Source: an uncultured Phocaeicola sp.
GTDB taxonomy: Bacteria > Bacteroidota > Bacteroidia > Bacteroidales > Bacteroidaceae
Assembly (NCBI GenBank): GCA_947626525.1
Contig: CANQSM010000019.1
Location: forward strand, 1-43,870
Direction of reading: 5' to 3'
DNA: 43,870 bases
Part shown: positions 16,496 to 43,870 of the stretch, piece after piece
Layout: every line of letters begins with the position of its first letter
How positions within the stretch are numbered: position 1 is the stretch's first letter
Position numbers and translations under genes: made by a program
Notes under the pieces: generated by a model
The model's database searches: none
Seen by the model: the letters and a program-made list of their open reading frames with translations, nothing else
Told to the model about the DNA's origin: nothing

Positions 16496-19093
16496 CTATT
16501 CTATCTTTATTTCTATGCATTGCAAGTCTTCTTCTCTGGAGCTTCCTCCATAGAGAATCTCGTAGCTTCCGGTGATAGGATGCATGGAGTTGGTTTTTGT
16601 ATCAAACCATTCGAAGGCGGAGTAGGGAAGCGGTATTTCTACTTCTTGACTACTTCCTTTCGGCAGGCTGATACGGCGGAACTCTCTGAGCGTCTTGATA
16701 GGACCCTCCGTGTCGTCCGGACGGCGCAGATAGACTTGCACCACTTCTTCCCCGTCGCGTTTGCCGATGTTCTGTACGGGAATCGTCAACATGGCAGATT
16801 CACCGTACTTCAATCTGGTTTTGTCCAAGCGTGCCGGCTGATAAGCATACTGTGTATAGCTCAGTCCGTAGCCGAAGGGGAACAGAGGGGTTCCGTTGAA
16901 ATAGCGGTAAGTACGTCCTTTCATGGAATAATCTTGAAAATCGGGCAGTTGTTCCGTGCTTTGGTAAAATGTGACCGGAAGGCGTCCGGCTGGATTGTAA
17001 TCACCGAAGAGTATGCTGGTTACCGCCGTGCCCCCTTCCTGTCCCGGATACCATGCTTGTAGGATGGCATCGCAGTTTTCGGCTTCGGGAGCCAAAGCAA
17101 TGGCGGAACCGGAATAGTTGACATACACCACTTTTTTGCCGGCCTTTTTCAAGGCTTGCAGTACTTGTCGCTGTGCATCGGGTAGTTCGATGTGGTCACG
17201 GTCTCCTCCATGGAATCCCGGTGCGTCAACGCTCATCTGCTCTCCTTCGAGCAGTGGCGAGATTCCGCCGGCAAACACAATGACATCCGCTTTTTTCAAT
17301 CGTTTCAGTAAATCCTGCATATCAGTTGGTTGCGCTTCCACCAAATCGAATTTCAGGAAAGCGTCTTCCCTTGTTTGGATGGTTTTCAATTCAATCTCGT
17401 ATTCCTTTCCTTGTTCGAACGTAAAGGGATAGTAGTTGGCCGGCTGTTTCTTATTGACAATTTCCTGTCCGGTTTCTTTTCCGTTTACCCATACGCCAGC
17501 TTTTCCGTTGGTCGCGATGCGGAAATAAGCCGTACCGGAATGAGTGGGGCGGAAAGTGGAACGGTAAGAGGCCGAAAATTCCCGCGTGTTCACTCCCGGG
17601 GCAAATACGGTGGCACCGGCGGCTTGAAAGGCAAAAGGTGTGGCCTGTACGGCTTGTGCGGAAGGAGTCCCTTGATAGGTTGTGTTGTTCCAATAAATTG
17701 CTTCGAAACCATTTCCTTTTGGAGAGTGACATTGGTCAAAAAGGCTACCCCAGATATGTGCGTTGGTATGTTCGCATACTTGTTCGTATATGATTTGTGA
17801 TTCAGGGAGTTTCTTTTGTATGCCTTTCAATAACGTCACCGTGTGTGACGGAGTACCATTGTAGTTACCCCATTGCATGACCGAATCGTTAGCGTTCGGA
17901 CCTATGACGGCAACAGTCATCTTTTTGTTCAGAGGAAGCAGGTTGCGTTTGTTTTGCAGAAGTACCATGCTCTCTTGTGCCATCTTTAAAGCCAAATCAT
18001 TGTGCTCGGCGGAAGCTACCACTGAATAGGGGATATGGCTCCACGGATGAATGCTGTCCATTTCACCTAATTCGAAACGGGCTTTCAACAAACGGCGTAC
18101 AGAAATATCGATGCGTTCTTGTGAAATCAATCCTTTTCGCACAGCGTCAGGCAATTTCCCGTAATTGGATCCGCATTCTATATCCGTTCCACTCAGTACG
18201 GCACTGGCCGAAGCGTGCGTGGCATCAGGGTGGGTATTATGTTTTTTTTCTCCGTAAAAGTCGGAAATGGCGCTACAGTCGGATACGACAATACCGTTGA
18301 ATCCCCATTCGTTGCGCAGAATCTGGGTGAGCAGTCGGTTACTACCGCAACAAGGGTCTCCTTCGTAACGGTTGTAGGCACACATGACTTCTTTTACCTT
18401 GGCTTTCTGTACCAGTTCCTTGAACGCCGGGAGATATGTTTCCCACAAATCACGCAGATCGATGTTTTCGGCATTAAAGCTGTGGCGGTTCCATTCTGGT
18501 CCGGAATGTACGGCAAAGTGTTTGGCGCAGGCATGGAGCTTGTTGTATTTGCTATTGGCTGGTCCTTGAAGGCCTTTTACCACAGCGCTTCCCATGCGTC
18601 CTGCCAAGTAAGGGTCTTCCCCGTAGGTCTCTTGTCCACGTCCCCAGCGTGGGTCGCGGAAGATGTTGATGTTTGGTGTCCACATGGTCAGCCCTTGATA
18701 ACGTTTGTACTGCCCCTTTTCATTGAAATCACGGTTTTTTGCACGTGCTTCATCGGAGACGGCCGTAAATACCTTGAACAGGAGACTGTCGTTGAAAGAG
18801 GCAGCCATGCCGATGGATTGCGGGAAAACCGTCGCCAATCCAGCACGCGCCACTCCGTGGAGTGCTTCGTTCCACCACTCATACGGTTTGATTCCAAGTC
18901 GGGGAATTGCTTTCGAATCGTTTTGCATTAATAATGCTTTTTCTTCTAATGTAAGACGTTCCAGCAAGTCTTCCGCCCGTTGATCGGGCGATAGTTGCGT
19001 ATTCTGGTAAGGCGGTAGTGTTTCAGAAGTAGTCTGAGCCAAAGCACCGCACGAAAGAAGAGTGACTAGGTAGGTAGATAAAATTTTTCTCAT
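16496..19093 (-). CDS. Glycoside hydrolase family 3 with PA14 insert (beta-xylosidase/glucosidase type)
   Basis: An 865-residue secreted enzyme: signal peptide 1-19 (ending CGALA), GH3 N-terminal barrel (about 30-355) with YEWWNEALHGVA (71-82), KHFAVHSG (191-198) and nucleophile D272 in IVVSDCSAI, then the GH3 C-terminal sandwich (from about 370) interrupted by a PA14 carbohydrate-binding module (about 462-583), with a likely acid/base Glu at 615 or 617 (LLEGEQM), and a fibronectin-III-like tail (about 755-860). The YEWWNEALHGVA pattern is typical of beta-xylosidase or arabinofuranosidase-like GH3 enzymes, so xylan-type oligosaccharides are a fair guess, but specificity cannot be read out. 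No SusC/SusD genes or sensor adjoin it, so it is not in an obvious utilisation locus here. Confidence 0.93.
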   Translation of the reverse strand: MRKILSTYLVTLLSCGALAQTTSETLPPYQNTQLSPDQRAEDLLERLTLEEKALLMQNDSKAIPRLGIKPYEWWNEALHGVARAGLATVFPQSIGMAASFNDSLLFKVFTAVSDEARAKNRDFNEKGQYKRYQGLTMWTPNINIFRDPRWGRGQETYGEDPYLAGRMGSAVVKGLQGPANSKYNKLHACAKHFAVHSGPEWNRHSFNAENIDLRDLWETYLPAFKELVQKAKVKEVMCAYNRYEGDPCCGSNRLLTQILRNEWGFNGIVVSDCSAISDFYGEKKHNTHPDATHASASAVLSGTDIECGSNYGKLPDAVRKGLISQERIDISVRRLLKARFELGEMDSIHPWSHIPYSVVASAEHNDLALKMAQESMVLLQNKRNLLPLNKKMTVAVIGPNANDSVMQWGNYNGTPSHTVTLLKGIQKKLPESQIIYEQVCEHTNAHIWGSLFDQCHSPKGNGFEAIYWNNTTYQGTPSAQAVQATPFAFQAAGATVFAPGVNTREFSASYRSTFRPTHSGTAYFRIATNGKAGVWVNGKETGQEIVNKKQPANYYPFTFEQGKEYEIELKTIQTREDAFLKFDLVEAQPTDMQDLLKRLKKADVIVFAGGISPLLEGEQMSVDAPGFHGGDRDHIELPDAQRQVLQALKKAGKKVVYVNYSGSAIALAPEAENCDAILQAWYPGQEGGTAVTSILFGDYNPAGRLPVTFYQSTEQLPDFQDYSMKGRTYRYFNGTPLFPFGYGLSYTQYAYQPARLDKTRLKYGESAMLTIPVQNIGKRDGEEVVQVYLRRPDDTEGPIKTLREFRRISLPKGSSQEVEIPLPYSAFEWFDTKTNSMHPITGSYEILYGGSSREEDLQCIEIKIE

Positions 19094-33342: not shown

Positions 33343-33414
33343 ATTTCAAGTGAAGTCCAGTCGTGTATCTTGACTGGCAAAATACTCTTTTCATTATTAA
33401 AATTTAATTCTTAT

Positions 33415-34728
33415 ATGAACAATTATCAATTGCTCGTAGGGTTGTTTTTTGTGGCCTTGTCGAGCGGTAGATTGCATTCTTATGGTCAGTCGGCAATTAC
33501 TTTGGAAAAAATTTTCGAGATTGCCGAGGTGGGCAGCGCGCGGCTCCGCCCTTCGTTTGCTGCGCAAACCGAAGCCGAGCATGCTATAAACATTGCACGT
33601 GCAAGTCGTCTGCCGGATATCAATGCGTCCCTGTCATTCAGTTATATAGGCGACGGCTTTACAACAAGACGTGATTTTAGTGACTATCAAAAAGCTTCTA
33701 TACCTCATTTAGGAAGTGGACTGTCGTTGCATGTCACCCAACCAGTTTATACGGGCGGTGCCGTGACAAATACCATAGAACTTGCAGGGCTGAAATCAAC
33801 GGCCACACGTTACGCTACTGATTTTCAACGGGATAATATTCGTTTCCAACTTGCAGGATTCTATTTTGATATCTATAAATATACGAATCTGCGCCGAGTT
33901 GTAGAAAGCAATATGTTCGTTGCCAGAAAGGTACTGAAGGAAATGCGGAATCGCTATGAACAGGGCACTGCTCTCCAGAATGACATTACACGTTATGAGC
34001 TTCTGGTCTCGAACTTTGAATTGCAGCTTGTCAAGATAAACAACACTCTTGACATTCTCAATGCCAATCTCGTAACAACTGCTGGGTTGCCCGAGGGGAG
34101 TGTCATTGTTCCGGACTCTACCATTCTGGCCCGTTCTTTACCGATGGAAGGGGAACAATGGTGGTTGCAGGAGGCTGCCTTAAACTCTCCGTCATTAAGC
34201 CTTGCGCGTTCCGGTGTTGACATAAGCCGCAAAGCGGAGGATATCGTCCGTTCCGAGCGTCTGCCCAAGTTAGGGCTTCAGGCATGTTGGAACGTTGACG
34301 GTCCCATCCTTGTGGAAGTACCGCCAATCAACCGTAACCTGAGCTATTGGTATGTCGGGGTCGGAGTCAGCTACAACATCTCTTCACTGTATAAAAGCAA
34401 TAAATCTTTGGCAAAGAGCCGTGCCGCTACACAAAGGGCGACAGAAGAGCTTGCCATTACGTGTGAAAACATCTCGCTCGCCGTGAGGGCTGACTATGCA
34501 CACTATTTGGAAGCCTATGAGGAACTTCGGACACAACAAAAAAACGCGGAGCTTGCCGGACGGAACTACCGTACGGTTTCTACGCGATATTCGGCAGATA
34601 TGGCATTGATTACCGATTTGCTTGACGCGGCCAATGCGAAACTCGATGCAGAGGAACAGCTTGTTAATGCCCGTATAAACATTATCTATTATTATTACAA
34701 ACTTTTATTCATTACCGGAAAAATATGA
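33415..34728 (+). CDS. TolC-family outer-membrane efflux protein
   Basis: A 437-residue outer-membrane channel of a tripartite exporter. I chose ATG 33415 because MNNYQLLVGLFFVALSSGRL starts a normal signal peptide (cleaved near SYGQ); the frame opens at 33370. It has two OEP halves: long helices with ARASRLPDINASLSFSY and the conserved TQPVYTGGAVTNTIE in the first, and QRATEELAITCENISLAVRA plus YSADMALITDLLDAANAKLD in the second. Its last four bases (ATGA) overlap the membrane-fusion gene, making one operon with the two genes after it. Confidence 0.93.
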   Translation: MNNYQLLVGLFFVALSSGRLHSYGQSAITLEKIFEIAEVGSARLRPSFAAQTEAEHAINIARASRLPDINASLSFSYIGDGFTTRRDFSDYQKASIPHLGSGLSLHVTQPVYTGGAVTNTIELAGLKSTATRYATDFQRDNIRFQLAGFYFDIYKYTNLRRVVESNMFVARKVLKEMRNRYEQGTALQNDITRYELLVSNFELQLVKINNTLDILNANLVTTAGLPEGSVIVPDSTILARSLPMEGEQWWLQEAALNSPSLSLARSGVDISRKAEDIVRSERLPKLGLQACWNVDGPILVEVPPINRNLSYWYVGVGVSYNISSLYKSNKSLAKSRAATQRATEELAITCENISLAVRADYAHYLEAYEELRTQQKNAELAGRNYRTVSTRYSADMALITDLLDAANAKLDAEEQLVNARINIIYYYYKLLFITGKI

Positions 34729-35759
34729 AACACCGTAACAAAAAGATACTTTCTTATATCATCACTATTACAATAATCGCAGCTGCGGCATTATGGGTCG
34801 GTAGCAAGTTTATTCATCTTGGCAACATAGAGTTCACCGATAATGCGCAGGTACGCAGGCAGATAGTGCCTGTCAATAGTCGCGTTCAAGGTTATATCAA
34901 GGAGGTCCGTTTCAATGAATACGAGAGGGTCAGAAAGGGGGATACGCTTGTAATCATTGACGATGCCGATATGCGTCTTAATGTAGCACGCGCAAGTGCT
35001 GATTACCAGAATGCCCTTGCCGGACGTGGTGTTGCCGACCGTACGGTTACATCAGCCTCGGCCAATGTGGCTGTCAGCGAGGCGTCTATTGCCGAGGCGA
35101 AAGTGCTGATGGACAATGCGGCGACCGATTTGGAACGATACGAGAAATTATTGGCGCAGGAAGCTGTCACCCGTCAACAGTATGATGGTGCCAAAACGGA
35201 CTATGGAGTAAAAAAAGCCCGTTACGAAATGCTTGTTCGGCAACGTCTTGCCACATCATCGGTCGTTGATGTCAATCGTCAGCGTATCTCCCAGTCGGAA
35301 GCCGGAATTGGGCTTGCCAAGGCTCTCCTTGAAATTGCGGAGCTTAACCTCAGCTATACCGTAATTACCTCCCCGTGTGATGGACACGCTTCGCGCAGGG
35401 AGATACAGGTCGGTCAACTTGTACAACCGGGTCAGATACTGCTCGATGTGATTGACTCGGGCGACGTGTGGGTTGCCGCCAACTACAAGGAGACCCAACT
35501 CTACCATATAGCTCCCGGGAGTAAGGTAGAGATAAGGGTGGATGCCATTCCGGATGTTGTTTTCAACGGGAGTGTCCGTTCAATTTCCACAGCCACTGGC
35601 GCTTCACTTTCACTGATTCCTCAGGACAATTCGGCAGGGAACTTTGTGAAGGTACGCCAGCGGATACCTGTGAGGATTGAATTTACGGGGGATAACAAGC
35701 CGGAAGACATGGAAAGGCTTCATGCTGGCATGAATGTGGAATGCAGGGTAATGTATTGA
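34725..35759 (+). CDS. HlyD/EmrA-type membrane fusion protein
   Basis: A 344-residue periplasmic adaptor: one N-terminal membrane helix (about 9-27), a split biotinyl-lipoyl domain (VNSRVQGYIKEVRFNEYERVRKGD near 47-70, and SPCDGHASRREIQVGQLVQPG near 213), a coiled-coil hairpin between (about 85-205), and a beta-barrel that contacts the pump (about 240-340). This is the EmrA layout for an MFS partner rather than an RND one. It starts inside the TolC stop and ends 1 base before the MFS gene. Confidence 0.93.
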   Translation: MKHRNKKILSYIITITIIAAAALWVGSKFIHLGNIEFTDNAQVRRQIVPVNSRVQGYIKEVRFNEYERVRKGDTLVIIDDADMRLNVARASADYQNALAGRGVADRTVTSASANVAVSEASIAEAKVLMDNAATDLERYEKLLAQEAVTRQQYDGAKTDYGVKKARYEMLVRQRLATSSVVDVNRQRISQSEAGIGLAKALLEIAELNLSYTVITSPCDGHASRREIQVGQLVQPGQILLDVIDSGDVWVAANYKETQLYHIAPGSKVEIRVDAIPDVVFNGSVRSISTATGASLSLIPQDNSAGNFVKVRQRIPVRIEFTGDNKPEDMERLHAGMNVECRVMY

Positions 35760-35760
35760 T

Positions 35761-37350
35761 ATGGCAGACTGGCATGTTTCGCAAGGACCATTCGATATTC
35801 CGGATGTTCCTAATTTCATTCCACGGTGTCTGAAACCGTACTTGTTCATTTTTTTTGTACTGATAATCCAATTCTCGGGCGGAGTCTATCTTGCAGCAGC
35901 CTCCAACATGGTAGGTACAAAGGCGTTGATGCAGGAGGATATCCTCATGGCTGGCTATGCCTCATTGATAGGTATGGCTATCAATTTTGCCGTTATGTTC
36001 CGCATTAAGTTCCGTTTCTCTACTCGAATCCAGTTGATTGCTGCCGGCATAGTCTTGATTGCTGCCAATGTAGTATGTGCCCACACCACTTGTGTACCGT
36101 TGCTTGTCGGTACCTGTTTTGTGGCAGGATGGTTCAGGATGCAGGCAACTCTTGCCTGTAACTCCACAATACTGTTGTGGTTGACCCCTATGCGTGATAT
36201 GGCGGTATTTTTTTGTTACGTTTATGTATTAGTCGACGGCGTGATACAATTGAACGGTATCGCTACCATCTATACTGCATTCTTCTCGCAATGGGAATAT
36301 ATGCATTGGATTATGATCGGGCTGCTCGTTTTGATGATACTGTTGGTAATAATATTAGTGAGGCCTGTGCGTGGACCAATGTTCATTCCTTTGCTTGGCA
36401 TTGACTGGATAGGCGCAATCTTATGGGCGGGATTTATGCTTTGTTTTACTTTCATTTGCGTTTACGGCAATTTCTACGACTGGTGGAATGCCAAGGAGAT
36501 AAGAGGTGCAACATTTATAGGGCTTGTCTGTTCCGGCATAAACCTGTGGAGGACCACATTCCTTCATCATCCTTACATATCGTTCCGGGCGTTGAAAAAT
36601 CATAACGTGATACGGGCGACGGGCATCTATCTCATTTTCTTCACCCTGATTGCCACTGAGCATGTGTTTGAACATAATTATACAGCAAATATACTTGAAT
36701 ATGATGAAACTAATCAAATCGACCTGAATTGGTATGTATTTGCTGGAATTATCGCAGGATGTGTGTTTACATATTTCACTTTCGCGCTACGTAAATGGAG
36801 GTATAAGACCATGGCGGCAATAGCATTTGTTCTTGCCGCTGGTTATCTTGCCTGTTTCTATTTCTTCATCGACTATGGTGTTGAGAAAGAGCTGTTTTGC
36901 ATTCCACTGTTGTTTCGTGGCGCCTCATCTGTGATAATCTCCATTGTTTTCCTGACCTCAATTGTGCAGAGTGGGCTTCCGTTTCAGATATTTCCGCAGG
37001 CTCTTACTATCAACGGGTTCACGGGTGCGGTAATGGGAGCAACTTTCGGACCAGCGCTTATCGGAGAATTCCTAAAACATACGATGGCTAAAAACATCTC
37101 GTTGCTCAGTTCGAATATCGTAGATTTTAATCCCGATATAGCTCATATATCTTTCGGTCAACTCTACGGGATGGTGCAGAGGCAAGCTCTGATTGTTTCG
37201 ATGAAGGAAATTTACGGCTGGCTACTTATTGTGGCTTTGATGTCGTTGCTGACGATAATTGTCAGTTATGGAAATGTTCGCCCATTTGCAATATTTCCGA
37301 AGTGGAGTACGATTCGGCGAGGGATGAAGCATATAGTACGAACCAAATAA
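35761..37350 (+). CDS. MFS efflux transporter, DHA2/EmrB type
   Basis: A 529-residue inner-membrane pump with about 14 hydrophobic segments, as in EmrB-like DHA2 drug/H+ antiporters, starting with a soluble GPFDIPDVPNFIPRCLKPYL before the first span. It carries the full fold, although the usual DHA2 motif C around residue 150 is not obvious by eye. With the TolC and EmrA-like genes it completes a tripartite exporter. The substrate is unknown; Bacteroides homologs are linked to bile salts, drugs or fatty acids, but nothing here decides. No regulator gene adjoins the operon. The stop is followed by a hairpin at 37360. Confidence 0.9.
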   Translation: MADWHVSQGPFDIPDVPNFIPRCLKPYLFIFFVLIIQFSGGVYLAAASNMVGTKALMQEDILMAGYASLIGMAINFAVMFRIKFRFSTRIQLIAAGIVLIAANVVCAHTTCVPLLVGTCFVAGWFRMQATLACNSTILLWLTPMRDMAVFFCYVYVLVDGVIQLNGIATIYTAFFSQWEYMHWIMIGLLVLMILLVIILVRPVRGPMFIPLLGIDWIGAILWAGFMLCFTFICVYGNFYDWWNAKEIRGATFIGLVCSGINLWRTTFLHHPYISFRALKNHNVIRATGIYLIFFTLIATEHVFEHNYTANILEYDETNQIDLNWYVFAGIIAGCVFTYFTFALRKWRYKTMAAIAFVLAAGYLACFYFFIDYGVEKELFCIPLLFRGASSVIISIVFLTSIVQSGLPFQIFPQALTINGFTGAVMGATFGPALIGEFLKHTMAKNISLLSSNIVDFNPDIAHISFGQLYGMVQRQALIVSMKEIYGWLLIVALMSLLTIIVSYGNVRPFAIFPKWSTIRRGMKHIVRTK

Positions 37351-37359
37351 TATATTATT

Positions 37360-37404
37360 TTGATTTGTCCTAAATAACAGTAATGGCTATTTAGGACAAA
37401 TCAA
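37360..37404. repeat. Perfect 17-bp inverted repeat
   Basis: Arms 37360-37376 and 37388-37404 match exactly (core TTTGTCCTAAATA) with an 11-base loop. It sits 10 bases after the MFS stop, at the point where the IS1595 transposase fragment is cut off. It has no clear T-tract. It may end the efflux operon, or mark the end or scar of the IS. Confidence 0.7.
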
Positions 37405-37655
37405 CAAAGTTGATTGTGCAAAGCCACATGTGCAAGTCAAGTGAGTTCTCTTGAAAATCGTGCTTTTCAATGCGGAGAACTCGCTCTTGCAGTTGTTGCA
37501 GTACAACTTCCTGTGATCGTAATTCTCCGATATACACTTTCGTGTACGCATCCGCACTTCGGGCATGCATAACCGTTCTTGTACTTCGCTGACATGATAA
37601 AATCAATGGCACTGTTTTCGTCCGGAAATTTCTTTGTAAATTCAAAACAGTTCAT
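37405..37655 (-). pseudogene. IS1595/ISXO2-type transposase, N-terminal fragment
   Basis: From the ATG at 37655 the minus strand reads MNCFEFTKKFPDENSAIDFI and continues to a zinc-ribbon half YACPKCGCVHESVYR, the standard IS1595-family opening. A frame change follows, after which KLYCNNCKSEFSALKSTIF (second zinc-ribbon half) is readable, then a second shift before ENSLDLHMWLCTIN. Similarity stops at the inverted repeat near 37404, so only about a quarter of the transposase (the DNA-binding N-terminus, without the DDE core) remains, with two frameshifts. Confidence 0.82.
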
Positions 37656-37663
37656 TATCTTTG
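37633..37663 (+). promoter_or_regulatory. Promoter TTTG-N19-TATCTTTG into the zincin pair
   Basis: TTTG at 37633-37636, 19 bases, then TATCTTTG at 37656-37663: an exact Bacteroides -33/-7 arrangement, the best in this window. It lies on the plus strand at the 5' edge of the IS1595 fragment (whose own ATG is at 37655 on the other strand) and about 100 bases before the first zincin gene, with no other gene between. Confidence 0.65.
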
Positions 37664-37766
37664 TTTTGCTTTTGATTACGATGCGACTTATGAGCATAAG
37701 TTTTCAAATATGCAAGCCTAAAACAGATAATCCCGTTACAGAATATAAATTAACACTATTATCAAA

Positions 37767-40358
37767 ATGAAAAGAATTTGGGTGGCTCTTTTAGTGTTTT
37801 CTATACTAGGAGGAAGTGTATCAGCAAATACTATTTCTTTTAAACGCAAAAGGCCAAAAAAGAAGGAGTCTGTTGAGAAAGAAAAAACTGTTTATGATAA
37901 ACTGTTTTCATCTAATCATTCAAAAGCAGAAGGTTTTATCACTGTACATAAAGTAAAGGAGAAAATTTATTTTGAACTTCCCTTATCAATGTTGCAACGT
38001 GATATGTTATTAGGTTCTACAGTAACAGAAATTAGTGATAATAAGAACGCTATTATTGGTTCGAAACCTACTGAACCTCTTCATTTTCGTTTTGAGAAAT
38101 TGAATAATAAAGTCTGTTTGTCGGCAGTGCAGACCAATAATGTGGGTGATGACAGTGGCCATCGATTGAAGGCAGCTATTGAGATGAGCAATATAAATGC
38201 TATTCTGCAAGTATTTGATATTTCGGCTTATAATAACGACAGTACAGCAGTTGTTTTTGATGTTACCGATTTCTTTGTAGGTGACAATAAATTAATGTCC
38301 CCATTCGATAAATACAGCGTGAATACATCCGGGGGACGTAAACGTTTGACCTCATTTCAAAGTAACAAATCATTTATTGATAGTTTTAAGGCGTTTGAAG
38401 ATAACATATCAGTTCGTAGTTGCTTGAATTATACTTATTCGTTGACAGGGGGCAAAGGGAAAGACATAAAAGACGAACCTTTGACCGCAAAGGTAACCCG
38501 TTCGATTATATTATTGGATACGATTCCTTATCGTCCTCGATTGATGGATAGTAGAATTGGCATTTTTCCTACAATGAAAAATGAATATTCAGTTGCTAAA
38601 CAGACAACCCGTTCTATCTATTATGCAAATCGTTGGCGTTTGGAACCTTCAGATTTGAGAGGTTATATTGAAGGAAAAAAAGTGACTCCTATTAAACCGA
38701 TTGTATTCTACATAGACAGTTGTTTCCCTGAAAGTTGGAAAGCATCTATATTTGAAGCTGTCAACCAATGGAATGAGCCATTTGAAAAAATCGGTTTTAC
38801 ACAAGCTATCCAGGCTAAAGAATTTCCGAAAGACGATCCTGAATTTGATCCGGATAATTTGAAATATTCATGCATTCGTTATGCTCCGATAGAGATTGAG
38901 AATGCAATGGGACCATCGTGGGTTGACCCTCGTAGTGGGGAAATATTGAATGCTTCGGTATATCTGTACCATAACGTCATAAAATTGTTGAATAATTGGC
39001 TGTTTATTCAAACTGCTCAAGCCGATAAGCGTGTACGTCATAAAGTAATTCCAAGAGAGGTGATGGACGATGCTTTACGTTATGTCGTTTCTCATGAAGT
39101 GGGCCATTGTTTGGGATTTATGCATAATATGAGTGCTTCTTCCGTAATTCCCGTAGATTCGCTCCGTTCTCCTTCATTTACGCAGAAGCATGGTACTACC
39201 ACTTCCATTATGGATTACGCGCGTTTTAATTATGTGGCACAACCTGGTGATATGGAACGGGGAGTACGTATGATGCCGCCATATTTTGGTTTGTATGACG
39301 ATTATCTGATTCGCTGGAATTATACACCTGTGCTGGAAGCTAAAACTCCGGAAGAGGAATATGCCATCACTTCGAAATGGATTACGGATTTGTCAGATAA
39401 TCCTGTATATCGGTATGGCAAGCAGCAGTCGGATATACTCGACCCTCGTTCTCAAACGGAAGATTTGGGAGATGATGCAGTGAAAGCAACCCGATATGGA
39501 GTGAAAAATCTGAAATATATTCTGGCTAATCTGAATCAATGGTTAGGAGAAGAAGATGTGGATTATACATATCGGTCAGATATTTACGATGGCATAATTA
39601 TGCAATATCTGACTTATATGTTGCATGTATATCATAATATAGGAGGAATCTATTTGCATGAAAAATTGGTTGGTGATAAAGTGGAAGCCTTGCAGGTTGA
39701 ACCTAAAGAAAAGCAGAAAGAGGCAATGAATTACTTTTTGGAGCAATTGGCAACTTTGGATTGGCTGGATGATGAGAATGTGCTGAAGGTACTGCCTATG
39801 GTAGGGAAACCGTCGGATGCTTTGCGGGATGTAATGATGAAATTATTGATGAAAGCTCCTGCCCGGGTAGAATTTTCGGCATTAAAAGTCAGTAAGGAAG
39901 AGGGATATGATATTGATGAATGTATGAATGATATTTATACATATATATGGAATCCTACTATACAAGGACGTAAATTGAGTGCTATTCAAATGAAACTACA
40001 GAATTTGTTTGTCAAACATCTGGCTTCGACTGCCGGAATTCGATTGAGTAAAGATACTAAATCATTGAAAAGTGAAGAAGATGCATGGGGACAGTTAGTT
40101 CCTTTTTATCATAAAACAGGTGTAGGGTATAAAGGATGTTGCTGTGCGTCCGACCTTGGGCATATGTTTAATCCAGTGGCTGGATTTGATGAACCAATGG
40201 CAGAGTATTTTGTTCCCAAAAACCAGGATAGTCTATGTTATGGTTATTTTTTGCGCATACGCAATTTATTAAACAGCCGGAAGCAGCATGCTGATAAAGA
40301 TACACGGCTTCATTATCAATTATTGCTTCATCAAATGAACAATGCATTAAACAGATGA
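37767..40358 (+). CDS. Secreted zinc-dependent metalloprotease (DUF5117/DUF5118 type), intact active site
   Basis: An 863-residue exported protein: signal peptide about 1-20 (ending GSVSAN), a DUF5118-like segment (about 50-100), a DUF5117 domain (about 105-300), and a catalytic zincin domain with HEVGHCLGFMH at 443-453, where H443, H447 and H453 would bind Zn and E444 activates water. SIMDY at 480-484 fits the Met-turn of metzincins. The C-terminal region (about 490-863) carries a Cys cluster GCCCASD near 790. Substrate is unknown; relatives are widespread in gut Bacteroidales. A good promoter lies 104 bases upstream, and the last four bases (ATGA) overlap the next gene, a paralog. Confidence 0.9.
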   Translation: MKRIWVALLVFSILGGSVSANTISFKRKRPKKKESVEKEKTVYDKLFSSNHSKAEGFITVHKVKEKIYFELPLSMLQRDMLLGSTVTEISDNKNAIIGSKPTEPLHFRFEKLNNKVCLSAVQTNNVGDDSGHRLKAAIEMSNINAILQVFDISAYNNDSTAVVFDVTDFFVGDNKLMSPFDKYSVNTSGGRKRLTSFQSNKSFIDSFKAFEDNISVRSCLNYTYSLTGGKGKDIKDEPLTAKVTRSIILLDTIPYRPRLMDSRIGIFPTMKNEYSVAKQTTRSIYYANRWRLEPSDLRGYIEGKKVTPIKPIVFYIDSCFPESWKASIFEAVNQWNEPFEKIGFTQAIQAKEFPKDDPEFDPDNLKYSCIRYAPIEIENAMGPSWVDPRSGEILNASVYLYHNVIKLLNNWLFIQTAQADKRVRHKVIPREVMDDALRYVVSHEVGHCLGFMHNMSASSVIPVDSLRSPSFTQKHGTTTSIMDYARFNYVAQPGDMERGVRMMPPYFGLYDDYLIRWNYTPVLEAKTPEEEYAITSKWITDLSDNPVYRYGKQQSDILDPRSQTEDLGDDAVKATRYGVKNLKYILANLNQWLGEEDVDYTYRSDIYDGIIMQYLTYMLHVYHNIGGIYLHEKLVGDKVEALQVEPKEKQKEAMNYFLEQLATLDWLDDENVLKVLPMVGKPSDALRDVMMKLLMKAPARVEFSALKVSKEEGYDIDECMNDIYTYIWNPTIQGRKLSAIQMKLQNLFVKHLASTAGIRLSKDTKSLKSEEDAWGQLVPFYHKTGVGYKGCCCASDLGHMFNPVAGFDEPMAEYFVPKNQDSLCYGYFLRIRNLLNSRKQHADKDTRLHYQLLLHQMNNALNR

Positions 40359-42853
40359 TTACGAAGAATAAATATATCTTTTTGCTCTTTTTATCCGTAT
40401 TTGCTGTATTTGTCTTTTCTCCTTTGAAGGCTGTTGCCAAAAAAAAGAAAAATGGGAAAATAGAGCAGGTTAAACCCAAAAGCGCATACGAAAAGCTGTT
40501 GAAGGATAAACCGAATAGTGTCGAAACTAAAGGACTGATGAATCTTTATTGGGTAGACAATAAAGTATATATGGAAATACCCAGAGATGTGTTGGGTAAA
40601 CGTTTGCTGATGGGAGGTGTGGTCGATAAACTAAGTAACCCGCAGGAGTCATTTGTTGGCTTTTGTCCTGCTACACCTGTGCAAGTGAAATTCTGCCGGT
40701 CTGATTCTTTGGTCAGGTTATATCAGATAGCGGATCGTCCGGTGACGGAACAAGGTTCCAGTATCGGAGATGCGCTAAAAAAAAGTTTCAGTGATGTCAT
40801 TTTAAATCAATTTTCTATAAAGGCTTATTCTCCAGATAGTGCTTTGGTGATTGACGTCACATCTTATGTCTTCCAAGATGATAAATATATGAATCCGATT
40901 GATCCGAAAGCATACAATACAATGGATGGTTGGGTGAAGCGTAAAGCTTCTTTTAAACAGAAGCAATCAATGATATCCGGAATAGCTTCTTATCCTGACA
41001 ATGTATCTATTTCATGTTATATGAGTTATGAATTGGCGATGTCATTATTCGGTATTTTTCCGATAGCAGAAAATATTCCTTTCAGTGCAGTTGTGAAGCG
41101 TACTTTTATGTTATTGCCAGAAGAGGGAGATTATTGCCCTCGTTTGGCTGATCCTCGTGTCGGAACTATATGGAGTGGCAAGATGAATTTTTCGGATAGG
41201 GAGCAAGGTAGCAACATGCAGCATAGGGTGAATCGCTGGAACCTGACTGCTGATAAACCTATTGTTTTCTATGTGGATTCGCTGTTGCCTGAAAAATGGC
41301 AGAAGTGTGTGTATCGTAGCGCTGAGATATGGAACAAAAGCTTTCAGAAAATAGGTTTTTCTAATGCGTTAGATGTGAAACCTTATCCTAAAGATATAGG
41401 GTTTGATGCTAACAGTATTACTAAGTCTTGTATCCGGTATGTCGTTTCACCTTCCGGGCAGATTACGGATAATTATTGGAGTGATCCGTTGACAGGGGAA
41501 ATAATAAGTGCCAATATTTATATCCCTCATAATTTAGCTTCGAAAATTCAGCTGAATTATTTCTTACAGACAGCTTCTTTTAACGAGAAAGCCCGTACGT
41601 TGATGCCGGATGAAGATTTGGTGGAAGAAGCATTGACTTCGTTATTGTTGAGGCATTGGGGGCATTGTTTGGGGTTGACGGATAATATGGCAGGATCTAT
41701 TGCTTATCCGGTAGATTCGCTTCAATTGAAAGAGTTTGTAAAAAAACATGGGTTATCTGCGTCAGTCATGGATAAGTTGCCGATGAACTATTTACTTTCG
41801 GTTGATAATTATAGTGATGATACACCTTTGACGCAACAAGTGCTGGGAGAATATGACCATTGGGTGATTCGTTATCTTTATCAGCCCATGAATAAGAAAA
41901 CACCGCAGGAAGAATTATTGGATTTACGGGAGCTGGTTTCTGAACGGAATCAGAATCCATTATTACTTTTTAAACGTCCTCAGAGTAAGAAAGCTTATTA
42001 TGATCCTCGTGGGATGGAGATGGATTTGGGAAATGATGCTATTCGTGCGGCAACTATTGCTTTTGAGAATTTAGGTAGAGTAGTGGCGAATGCAAACCAA
42101 TGGTTGGACAAGGAAGATTTCAACTATGAAAAACGATCCTCACTATATGGGGAAATTATCAATCAGGCGGATGAATACGTGAAACATGTATTACAGCAAG
42201 TTGGTGGAATCTATCTGAATGATAGTTATCAAGGGGATAGTTACCCTTCTTATCAACCGGTATCCAAAGAGTTGCAACGTCAATCGTACCAGTGGATGAT
42301 GGAAGCTATCAGTAAGATGAACTGGTTGGACAATCGGGAACTGTTGAATCATTGTGCGCTGACAGGTAGTGCTGCTGACTATTCACAGAAATTTTTTGCC
42401 AATTTGCTATTAATACAGCTCAATAACCTTTGGCTTAGCGAAAGTAAATCAGATGACCCTTATACGCAACAGCAGGCTTTCGAAGATTTGAAGAATCATC
42501 TTTTTAAGGAAACAAGGGCAGGAAAGGAACCCGACGATTGGAAACGTTTCTTACAAGGACAATTGCTGAGTTCTGTCATTTCTTGGTCGAATGTAAATGT
42601 GCCAGAAGGGAAAGATGAGACAGCTAATATTTCTTCTAAACAGACTATTCAGACTGTCTGTCCTTATCGGGGTATGACGGCTATTGAGAGCATTCCTTAT
42701 TCTTCTGCTCCTGAACGGGCTTCATTCTGGTATGGTTGTTTGTTGGATTTGAAAAGTGAGTTTATGAGGGCGAAATCAGTAGCACCTAACCAAGAAATGC
42801 AAGAGGAGTATGATTACCGGTTGTTTACGATTGAGAAGGCATTGCGGAAATGA
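40355..42853 (+). CDS. Paralog of the upstream metalloprotease with a degenerate zinc site
   Basis: An 832-residue exported protein with the same domain order as its neighbour: signal peptide about 1-28 (ending KAVAK), DUF5118/DUF5117-like region, zincin-fold region, C-terminal domain. Conserved landmarks between the two include YEKLL/YDKLF near the N-terminus, PIVFY, the SC[IV]RY stretch, GHCLG and YPVDSL/IPVDSL. The zinc motif HEVGHCLGFMH of the first protein is RHWGHCLGLTD here (433-443): first ligand H to R433, catalytic E to H434, third ligand H to D443; only H437 survives. The Met-turn reads SVMDK (M472). It should not hydrolyse peptides, so I infer a pseudoprotease, perhaps a partner or regulator of the first protein. 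The frame is fully open, so it is maintained. Confidence 0.9.
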   Translation: MITKNKYIFLLFLSVFAVFVFSPLKAVAKKKKNGKIEQVKPKSAYEKLLKDKPNSVETKGLMNLYWVDNKVYMEIPRDVLGKRLLMGGVVDKLSNPQESFVGFCPATPVQVKFCRSDSLVRLYQIADRPVTEQGSSIGDALKKSFSDVILNQFSIKAYSPDSALVIDVTSYVFQDDKYMNPIDPKAYNTMDGWVKRKASFKQKQSMISGIASYPDNVSISCYMSYELAMSLFGIFPIAENIPFSAVVKRTFMLLPEEGDYCPRLADPRVGTIWSGKMNFSDREQGSNMQHRVNRWNLTADKPIVFYVDSLLPEKWQKCVYRSAEIWNKSFQKIGFSNALDVKPYPKDIGFDANSITKSCIRYVVSPSGQITDNYWSDPLTGEIISANIYIPHNLASKIQLNYFLQTASFNEKARTLMPDEDLVEEALTSLLLRHWGHCLGLTDNMAGSIAYPVDSLQLKEFVKKHGLSASVMDKLPMNYLLSVDNYSDDTPLTQQVLGEYDHWVIRYLYQPMNKKTPQEELLDLRELVSERNQNPLLLFKRPQSKKAYYDPRGMEMDLGNDAIRAATIAFENLGRVVANANQWLDKEDFNYEKRSSLYGEIINQADEYVKHVLQQVGGIYLNDSYQGDSYPSYQPVSKELQRQSYQWMMEAISKMNWLDNRELLNHCALTGSAADYSQKFFANLLLIQLNNLWLSESKSDDPYTQQQAFEDLKNHLFKETRAGKEPDDWKRFLQGQLLSSVISWSNVNVPEGKDETANISSKQTIQTVCPYRGMTAIESIPYSSAPERASFWYGCLLDLKSEFMRAKSVAPNQEMQEEYDYRLFTIEKALRK

Positions 42854-42860
42854 TATAATC

Positions 42861-43030
42861 TAACGTGAGTTCGACGAATTTTAATTGTCTGTAGATTGAG
42901 TGATTAGCGAAATGAACTTATGAATATTGTACAGGTGGAACATTCAGGACACAAGTTGTCCGACAACTTTATTGTCAACCAATCGGGGGTATAGCTGTGG
43001 TTGCTCCCCTTTTTTCCGCATGGGGATGGC
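42861..43030 (+). mobile_element. Second IS982-family remnant, internally deleted
   Basis: The first 14 bases of the IS982 end (TAACGTGAGTTCGA, 42861-42874) recur here, 8 bases after the zincin-paralog stop. About 20 bases on, decayed transposase C-terminus can be read: NELMNIVQVEHSGHKLSDNF (42908-42967), matching the region after the premature stop of the first copy. Most of the transposase and the right-hand repeat are missing. The right limit is uncertain. Confidence 0.7.
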
Positions 43031-43099
43031 AGTACCTGCCAACCTATATGAATCGCCATGGTTACGGACGTGTTTTGTCTGTTTCTTGTATCTCCGTTC

Positions 43100-43123
43100 A
43101 CCGTCCAGCGAACGCTGGACGGT
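43100..43123. repeat. Hairpin repeat, copy 1
   Basis: ACCGTCCAGCG, two bases AA, then CGCTGGACGGT: a perfect 11-bp stem with a very tight loop, GC-rich within AT-rich surroundings. A second, imperfect copy lies at 43166-43190. Perhaps a REP-like intergenic element. Confidence 0.75.
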
Positions 43124-43165
43124 CCATGCAGATAGGTGCATCGGCTTTCGCAGCTATCTAACTTC

Positions 43166-43190
43166 ACCGTCCAGCGGACTGTTGGACGGT
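43166..43190. repeat. Hairpin repeat, copy 2
   Basis: ACCGTCCAGC, loop GGACT, GTTGGACGGT: a 10-bp stem with one G-U pair. It shares the outer ACCGTCCAGCG core with copy 1, 66 bases away, both preceded by TTC. Confidence 0.72.
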
Positions 43191-43243
43191 GCGAGATGCT
43201 TCCTTATTATTACTATGTAACCATCTTCTCTGTGTCTTTAATA

Positions 43244-43268
43244 TAGGGATATTTACTGAATATCCCTA
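43244..43268. repeat. Short perfect hairpin
   Basis: TAGGGATATT, loop TACTG, AATATCCCTA. Near-identical AATATCCCTA recurs on the minus strand at 43801-43810, inside the truncated frame. Role unknown. Confidence 0.5.
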
Positions 43269-43276
43269 ATATATAA

Positions 43277-43314
43277 AAGCCAATCAATTCATGATAAGAT
43301 GGATTAATTGGCTT
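43277..43314 (-). terminator. Terminator of the truncated minus-strand frame
   Basis: A 12-bp stem with one mismatch (43277-43288 with 43303-43314), loop of 14, followed on the minus strand by TTTTATAT. It lies 33 bases past the stop of the frame at 43347. Confidence 0.6.
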
Positions 43315-43346
43315 ATATTTTTAATGATGCTTTTTTTCTGTTTTGT

Positions 43347-43820
43347 TTATTCTACTACCCTTGTGAATGCATAGGTTATACCAAAGAAACTCGCATCGAA
43401 ATAAGAACCGTACTCTTCGTACGTTGAACTGAAGAAATCAGTAGGTATAAAATCGTGGAAGTAAATGATGATATTATTGTCATCTATCTTATCCAATCCT
43501 ATAAATGCATCTCCAAGTTCTGTTTTTTTCTTTGAGAAACAACGATTCACTTGAGAGGTGATGAAATAAGGAGCGTCATATTCCTCATCAGCTATCCAAT
43601 TATAGATACCTTTCTCTATATGGTCGAAAACGACAGTGTGTCCTTGAGGGTTGCAAAAGAAGTTCTTTAAATCTCCCGTCAGGTATGGGATTATTTTATC
43701 TGTACCATCTTCTTGATGTACAAATTCTAGGTAGTCATTAGCTCCATTGTTTTCCGGAAGACTATTTATCCAGTCTTCGTCAGGTACGCCAACATATACA
43801 TAGGGATATTCAGAATTTAG
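43347..43820 (-). pseudogene. 5'-truncated gene of unknown function
   Basis: An open minus-strand frame of 157 codons plus stop runs from 43820 to 43347 with no ATG; it begins right after an in-frame TGA at 43821-43823. The only near-start in the body is a GTG about 67 codons before the end. The translation looks like real protein (NSEYPYVYVGVPDEDWINSL near the start, GDLKNFFCNPQGHTVVFDHI in the middle, FFGITYAFTRVVE at the end) and is followed by a plausible terminator. I infer it is the C-terminal part of a gene whose start is lost or lies beyond an interrupting stop; I do not recognise the family. Alternatively it starts further right in another frame after a frameshift. Confidence 0.55.
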
Positions 43821-43870
43821 TCAACTAATTATTTGCCAATATGATAGATATTTTGTAACTTTACAAAGAA

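Follow-up and report, generated by a model that had tools for sequence, protein, structure and literature searches.

Tandem zincin genes with and without a catalytic site in Bacteroidales: a candidate group of two-chain proteases

Background

Why a bacterium should keep, overlapping the gene of a secreted protease, a second full-length gene of the same family that has lost the catalytic site is the question raised by two genes near the end of the window, a term that refers here to the whole stretch of 43,870 nucleotides analysed (contig CANQSM010000019.1, from an uncultured Phocaeicola sp.). The host is a gut-type bacterium. Among the DUF4953/DUF5117/DUF5118 Met-zincins of Bacteroidota, the first of these genes (gene 1) is an ordinary member, while the second (gene 2), although homologous from end to end, is without the site. 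No paper naming DUF5117, DUF5118 or DUF4953 was found in the open-access full text, in which few subscription papers and preprints are covered, and no description of dead members or of active-dead pairs in this family was found in the part of the open-access literature consulted. Throughout, "active" designates copies with the complete motif and "dead" those that have lost it.

Two overlapping paralogues, one without the active site

Gene 1, at positions 37767..40358 of the plus strand, encodes a secreted Met-zincin of 863 aa with the full motif, according to its open reading frame (ORF), its Pfam matches and the motif itself, and gene 2, at 40355..42853 of the same strand, a full-length pseudozincin of 832 aa, recognised from its ORF, its Pfam matches and the alignment with its paralogue. 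By the ORF coordinates, the stop codon of gene 1 and the start codon of gene 2 share the ATGA at 40355..40358 (plus strand), through which translation of the two genes may be coupled. The proteins are 30% identical over about 790 aligned residues (E 9e-119) and both match the Pfam families DUF5118, DUF5117 and DUF4953 (Met-zincin) above the cut-off, DUF4953 (PF16313) scoring 341 bits in gene 1 and 253.4 bits in gene 2 for a cut-off of 24.2. Inspected by eye, both N-termini, like those of most other pairs examined, have a signal-peptide-like stretch in which no lipobox was evident. The coordinates, the Pfam matches and the level of identity bear out the initial annotation, which had described two full-length paralogous secreted zincins overlapping by ATGA.

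The motif of gene 1, HEVGHCLGFMH (H443, E444, H447 and H453; residues 443-453, codons 39093..39125 of the plus strand as computed from the residue numbers), is accompanied by the Met-turn SIMDY. In the same columns of the alignment, gene 2 has RHWGHCLGLTD (residues 433-443, codons 41651..41683 of the plus strand, computed likewise) and SVMDK. The first zinc ligand is replaced by Arg, the catalytic Glu by His and the third ligand by Asp, the second His being retained; R-H-H-D thus stands where gene 1 has H-E-H-H, confirming the loss of two zinc ligands and of the catalytic Glu that had been read from the sequence at the outset. According to the available part of the literature on Asp-zincins, an Asp in the third position serves there as zinc ligand; despite this residue, a working site is not expected in gene 2 because its first His and its Glu are gone. 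Moreover, no HExxH was found anywhere in the sequences of the 34 dead copies tested, gene 2 included. The combination of HExxHxxGxxH and a Met-turn that characterises catalytic DUF4953 members is present in gene 1 and missing from gene 2. Judged from its motif, gene 1 is predicted to be active, and gene 2 is, as far as its sequence tells, a DUF4953 member by descent and not a metallopeptidase by its site.

A Cys/His-rich insert is located near the C terminus of gene 1 (40125-40163, residues 787-799). The CC pair of this type of insert occurs in five of the six aligned active partners, L079 being the exception, and the insert is absent from their dead partners; it perhaps constitutes a second metal site.

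The search of solved structures gave for gene 1 a weak match to EcxA (E 0.0098), in the region of the zinc motif, and a second weak one to a thioredoxin (E 0.86), and zero matches for gene 2. No NCBIfam model scored over its cut-off, no Rfam family matched within 37300-43870, plasmid records held no match at the near-identity DNA level and viral contigs none to the peptide patterns. AlphaFold single-chain models, computed from alignments of ten rows each (the window proteins and the proteins of L034-L037), have mean pLDDT values of 50.4 and 43.3, too low for structural use.

Purifying selection on the second gene

The closest homologues of gene 2 that were found belong to five Bacteroides relatives and are 74-95% identical to it: those of B. 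xylanisolvens XB1A, Bacteroides sp. STD2_73 (a MAG), Bacteroides sp. GM023 and B. faecichinchillae (74-94%) came from a scan of named genomes, and a further one (G107, 95%) from a survey of 119 genomes drawn around B. xylanisolvens. All five are dead, with the sequence [RK]HWGHCLGLTD, all five have an intact frame and each is directly preceded by a gene with HEVGHCLGFMH. In B. faecichinchillae (L036/L110), gene 1 is split near its N terminus into frames of 122 and 758 codons beside a whole gene 2, the result either of a sequencing fault or of a lineage keeping only the dead chain intact.

Pairwise dN/dS, calculated for 15 pairs by the Nei-Gojobori method with an own script, ranges from 0.066 to 0.141 for gene 2 and from 0.042 to 0.23 for gene 1, the latter maximum being reached between two near-identical copies; in seven or more of the 15 comparisons for each gene dS exceeds 1, which makes the values of those comparisons rough. 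In 13 of the 15 comparisons the gene 2 value exceeds the gene 1 value by a factor of 1.1 to 1.5, and between the window and G062 the proteins are 75% identical for gene 2 and 85% for gene 1, gene 2 being the faster-changing of the two. Gene 2 is under purifying selection. Among the findings that the initial annotation had named as speaking against a selected role are a dN/dS near 1 and a recent local loss among mostly catalytic homologues; what was found is the low range given above, five dead sequences among the five closest, and dead copies forming old clades. With its catalytic residues lost, its frame intact and its sequence under purifying selection, gene 2 has the attributes of a pseudoenzyme, and purifying selection on a protein without the site supports the selected non-catalytic role originally suggested for it, which may be that of a heterodimer subunit, a regulator or a substrate binder.

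Dead copies adjoin active ones

Similarity to gene 2 or to the family was the criterion by which homologues were gathered, in the genome that contains the window and in its relatives, in the Bacteroides survey, and in 392 genomes of the order plus 247 genomes of the phylum; such a collection is not a random sample, and very divergent dead copies may be missed. Motif columns were read by alignment, activity being assigned by motif, and duplicates were merged, including copies from different genomes that do not differ over the compared stretch. The resulting 253 distinct copies consist of 181 single active, 38 tandem active and 34 tandem dead copies, with no single dead one; 37 of the 181 single copies have fewer than 500 bases on one side, where a neighbour could be missed, and all 181 are active. 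An active copy is present in each of the 33 clusters that contain the 34 dead copies, one of these clusters (L081) combining one active and two dead copies, and two other tandems (L098 and L158) are made of two active copies. The order survey scored the two best candidates per genome, and dead copies are under-counted in it. The phylum survey provided 54 distinct copies that were read, all active and single, and among the matches listed no tandem was seen by eye outside the window's own genome.

This genome holds a second active-dead pair (L092:4799-9241, on its own contig C15), of 787 and 691 codons and belonging to the lineage II defined below, with genes for SusD, a DUF4843-like and a PKD-like protein upstream. 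For annotation, these counts mean that a match to the Met-zincin family goes with absence of its site in 34 of the 72 collected tandem copies.

The dead gene is downstream in 31 of the 33 clusters, L156 and L157 having the reverse order. Loss of the first His is the only one common to all 34 dead copies, 18 of which have Arg or Lys instead; a Glu still occupies the catalytic column in 14 and the third His is kept in one. Altogether, the four motif columns display 24 different patterns among the 34 copies.

Gene 2 could be a regulator, a decoy or inhibitor silencing gene 1 until both are exported or the substrate is met. The overlap of the two genes would suggest coupled amounts, and the available parts of two papers indicate that dead paralogues regulating active ones are known in general (PMC5201418, PMC11266112), but the single active copies of the family manage without any such regulator, and we consider this role improbable.

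Apparent repeated loss of the site and parallel histories of the partners

On a tree of 83 rows, obtained from 138 by collapsing near-copies (above 90% identity for dead, above 70% for active ones) and putting partners back, the dead state requires five changes, four of which are forced by starred branches. A tree of 49 rows inferred under a simpler model, from which eight near-copies and the long-branched dead row L154 were removed by hand and in which only eight of the other solitary rows were kept, requires three changes, and a single dead clade is rejected on it (p-AU 0.00025). The dead state therefore appears to have arisen several times, with at least three changes on the tree; fewer losses combined with regains of the site would also fit the number of changes but are unlikely. 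The initial annotation had asked whether degenerate copies form their own clade, always adjacent to an active copy: the adjacency holds in 33/33 clusters, whereas the single clade gives way to several.

Two large lineages were recognised. In lineage I, 12 dead rows constitute a single clade (SH-aLRT 99), whose neighbour is a clade of 11 active rows, partners or kin of the dead ones (88), the joining fork having a support of 81; in lineage II, eight dead rows (99) are sister to their eight partners (98) and joined to them at 97. L081 and L156 fall outside both. Within each of these lineages the trees of active and dead copies mirror each other, 8 of 9 splits agreeing for 12 pairs (Mantel r 0.94) and 6 of 6 for 9 pairs (Mantel r 0.997), with 0 of 5000 permutations as good in either case. 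This mirroring demonstrates a stable pairing without exchange and not a contact between the proteins, since physical linkage alone would produce it. L098 and L158, the two tandems made of active copies only, group in one clade with the dead copy of L156; pairing can therefore precede loss of the site, and these tandems look like intermediates before the loss. Their position suggests that the site was lost after the pairing had arisen.

Evolution is faster in dead than in active copies, with total tree lengths of 9.90 versus 6.16 in lineage I and 5.87 versus 4.97 in lineage II, as in a decaying duplicate without function. The dN/dS of gene 2, its intact frame in the five relatives and the existence of 18 groups of dead copies at 60% identity are opposed to decay, and the data speak so strongly against it that we give it next to no credence.

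A candidate two-chain protease

The reading we favour, at about even odds, is that gene 1 and gene 2 together make one secreted two-chain protease with one catalytic and one dead half. Gene 1 would be the catalytic chain, and gene 2 a paralogous chain still of full length which, having lost zinc binding and catalysis, is now a partner, completing or gating the cleft, binding the substrate, or holding the enzyme near the outer-membrane SusCD importer encoded in the neighbourhood. Such an enzyme would have originated from the tandem duplication of a zincin that was already dimeric, followed by loss of the site in one copy, a succession repeated within the family. Mutual dependence of the two chains is favoured because dead copies were found only beside active ones, because gene 2 is under purifying selection, because the dead state recurs and because pairing can precede the loss. 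The mirrored trees, the joint transfer of the pair with its SusCD genes and the lack of a residue set pointing to a new catalytic site in dead copies (both described below) were also counted in favour. Gene 2 is thus probably a partner of gene 1; the activity of gene 1, its physical contact with gene 2 and its need of it, the substrate, and a location at the surface or in the periplasm are the inferred parts of this reading.

Several observations were counted against this two-subunit reading: the 181 solitary active copies that have no dead partner, the reversed gene order in L156 and L157, the Glu retained in 14 and the third His retained in one of the 34 dead copies, and the split gene 1 of B. 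faecichinchillae beside a whole gene 2.

Conservation within the dead copies

Among ten pairs of lineage I, at a conservation of 90%, 56 columns are shared by active and dead copies, 186 are conserved in active copies only and 23 in dead copies only. Gene 2 might have gained another catalytic activity, as a full-length protein under selection could; the dead-only columns are few, and inspected by eye in these ten pairs they contain no evident triad or metal set and no signature of a new site, which together with the 24 motif patterns among 34 copies makes this very improbable.

The best-conserved stretch of 40 residues in the dead copies of lineage I is the former active site (gene 1 residues 441-480), and this area is therefore not simply decaying. 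Its mean identity is 46% in dead copies, against 14-41% elsewhere in them and 79% for the same stretch in active copies, which fits with a cleft still binding something or with a structural core. This conservation, though far below that of active copies, is also in line with gene 2 being a stand-alone substrate binder, which would have kept the cleft to capture peptides or glycopeptides and pass them to SusD or to the protease without any stable complex. A binder of this kind needs no adjoining active paralogue, yet all 34 dead copies have one.

Genomic neighbourhood

Neighbouring genes were counted around copies flanked on either side by at least about 3.6 kb of sequence, namely 18 of the 33 clusters and 32 of the 155 single copies then known, using SusC, SusD, DUF4843 and PKD profiles built from the genes of these loci. 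The gene order SusC, SusD, DUF4843, PKD-like protein, active zincin and dead zincin recurs. SusC or SusD was found near 16 of the 18 pairs and 26 of the 32 single copies. A special tie of the pairs to SusCD was considered and dropped, single copies being near SusC or SusD about as often; since pairs and single copies are alike in this respect, the SusCD linkage is a trait of the family. SusCD importers have mostly been studied for sugars. DUF4843 and PKD-like genes accompany active-dead pairs (11/18) more often than single copies (4/32), and we would guess that their products are surface binding proteins. Both the proximity of SusC or SusD to the pairs and this enrichment agree with the substrate binder, while the single active copies near SusC or SusD weaken the argument; on balance, we regard a stand-alone binder as possible but rather unlikely beside the two-chain protease.

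Variations of this arrangement were seen in L159 (lineage II), where a prolyl-oligopeptidase-like protein follows the pair, and in B. xylanisolvens, where the pair faces c7, SusD and SusC on the opposite strand. The latter locus (L111) qualifies as a SusCD utilisation locus, as does the own contig C73 of the window's genome by its DNA identity to L111.

Origin of the locus

The segment 37730..42862, which contains both genes, is 95.2% identical in DNA to Bacteroides xylanisolvens XB1A, and 43275..43803 (minus strand) holds the 3' part of c7, a gene of the donor locus, with a DNA identity of 94% to B. xylanisolvens, where c7 has a weak BT_3987-like match below the cut-off. A further 5.9 kb of the donor locus, comprising SusC, SusD and most of c7, is on the own contig C73 with 93% identity. 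Synonymous sites of the neighbouring valyl-tRNA synthetase gene are saturated relative to Bacteroides (pS 0.78-0.80; protein identity 77-80%), and no homologue of gene 2 above 31% identity was found in the 14 other genomes of the window's genus (absent from 14/14); taken with the identities above, this means that the locus came by horizontal transfer, from a Bacteroides-like donor. The SusCD genes accompanied the pair in this move between lineages.

Directly after gene 2 lies a repeat of up to about 390 bases (42856-43251), which is present in at least 19 other places in the genome with 84-99% identity and entered the imported segment after the transfer. Contamination or a chimeric contig was also considered and is unlikely, because a repeat spread over the same genome is inserted in the imported segment. 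The c7 gene is interrupted (at 43801-43870, and near 18259 on the own contig C73), its two parts, on different contigs, overlapping by 7 bases. The final 70 bases of the window are also found at ends of C15 and C121 and within C191; an insertion element with target-site duplication could account for the interruption. Just before gene 1, 37409-37737 matches one place on the own contig C32 at 78%, so that repeated DNA flanks the two-gene segment on both sides. Farther upstream (33370-37350) are genes for an outer-membrane efflux protein, an adaptor of the HlyD type and a protein of 529 aa that matches no Pfam model, probably forming an efflux-type operon outside the imported segment.

Comparison with known systems

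Pairs of an active and a dead protease are already known as a kind; their repeated rise in this zincin family was not found described in the open-access literature consulted. If the two-chain reading is true, two-chain proteases with one dead half have evolved separately several times within an uncharacterised family common in Bacteroidota. These would constitute, together with the two active-active tandems, natural replicates for the study of how duplicated enzyme subunits divide their work and dimers turn asymmetric, and would add a protein- or glycoprotein-handling arm beside SusCD importers. The likeness to RagAB/SusCD importers is one of gene positions, SusC and SusD being near most of the well-flanked pairs; in the available part of the source, RagAB is described as having been implicated in the uptake of proteins (PMC11817032).

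Another parallel is the trypanosome prozyme, described in the part of the source available as a dead paralogue activating its partner (PMC5201418), which differs from gene 2 in being of another enzyme class and eukaryotic.

The M16B proteases differ from the window pair by their HxxEH motif, and no M16 model matches gene 1 or gene 2 at E 0.001. Their fold also differs from that of the family of the window pair. Furthermore, most members of the DUF4953/DUF5117/DUF5118 family were found solitary, unlike M16B pairs. The organisation is otherwise close: in the available sections of two papers, M16B heterodimers (the mitochondrial processing peptidase or MPP, Thermus TTHA1264/TTHA1265, Sphingomonas SPH2681/SPH2682 and AlbF/AlbE) are composed of two paralogous chains, only one of which has the zinc motif, and are encoded in prokaryotes by a two-gene operon (PMC11266112, PMC12731061). 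As reported there, TTHA1264 was a monomer without activity in solution and is active as a heterodimer with the protein that the adjacent gene encodes (PMC12731061), and the alpha chain of MPP is needed although it is without the zinc motif (PMC11266112). Adjoining paralogues with and without the zinc site are likewise what was found in all 33 clusters with a dead copy. It is possible, if somewhat short of probable, that the DUF4953/DUF5117 zincins of Bacteroidales have a repeatable path from tandem duplication to an obligate heterodimer in which one site was lost several times, and that the resulting two-chain proteases form with SusCD peptide-handling machines, as a zincin counterpart of M16B and MPP.
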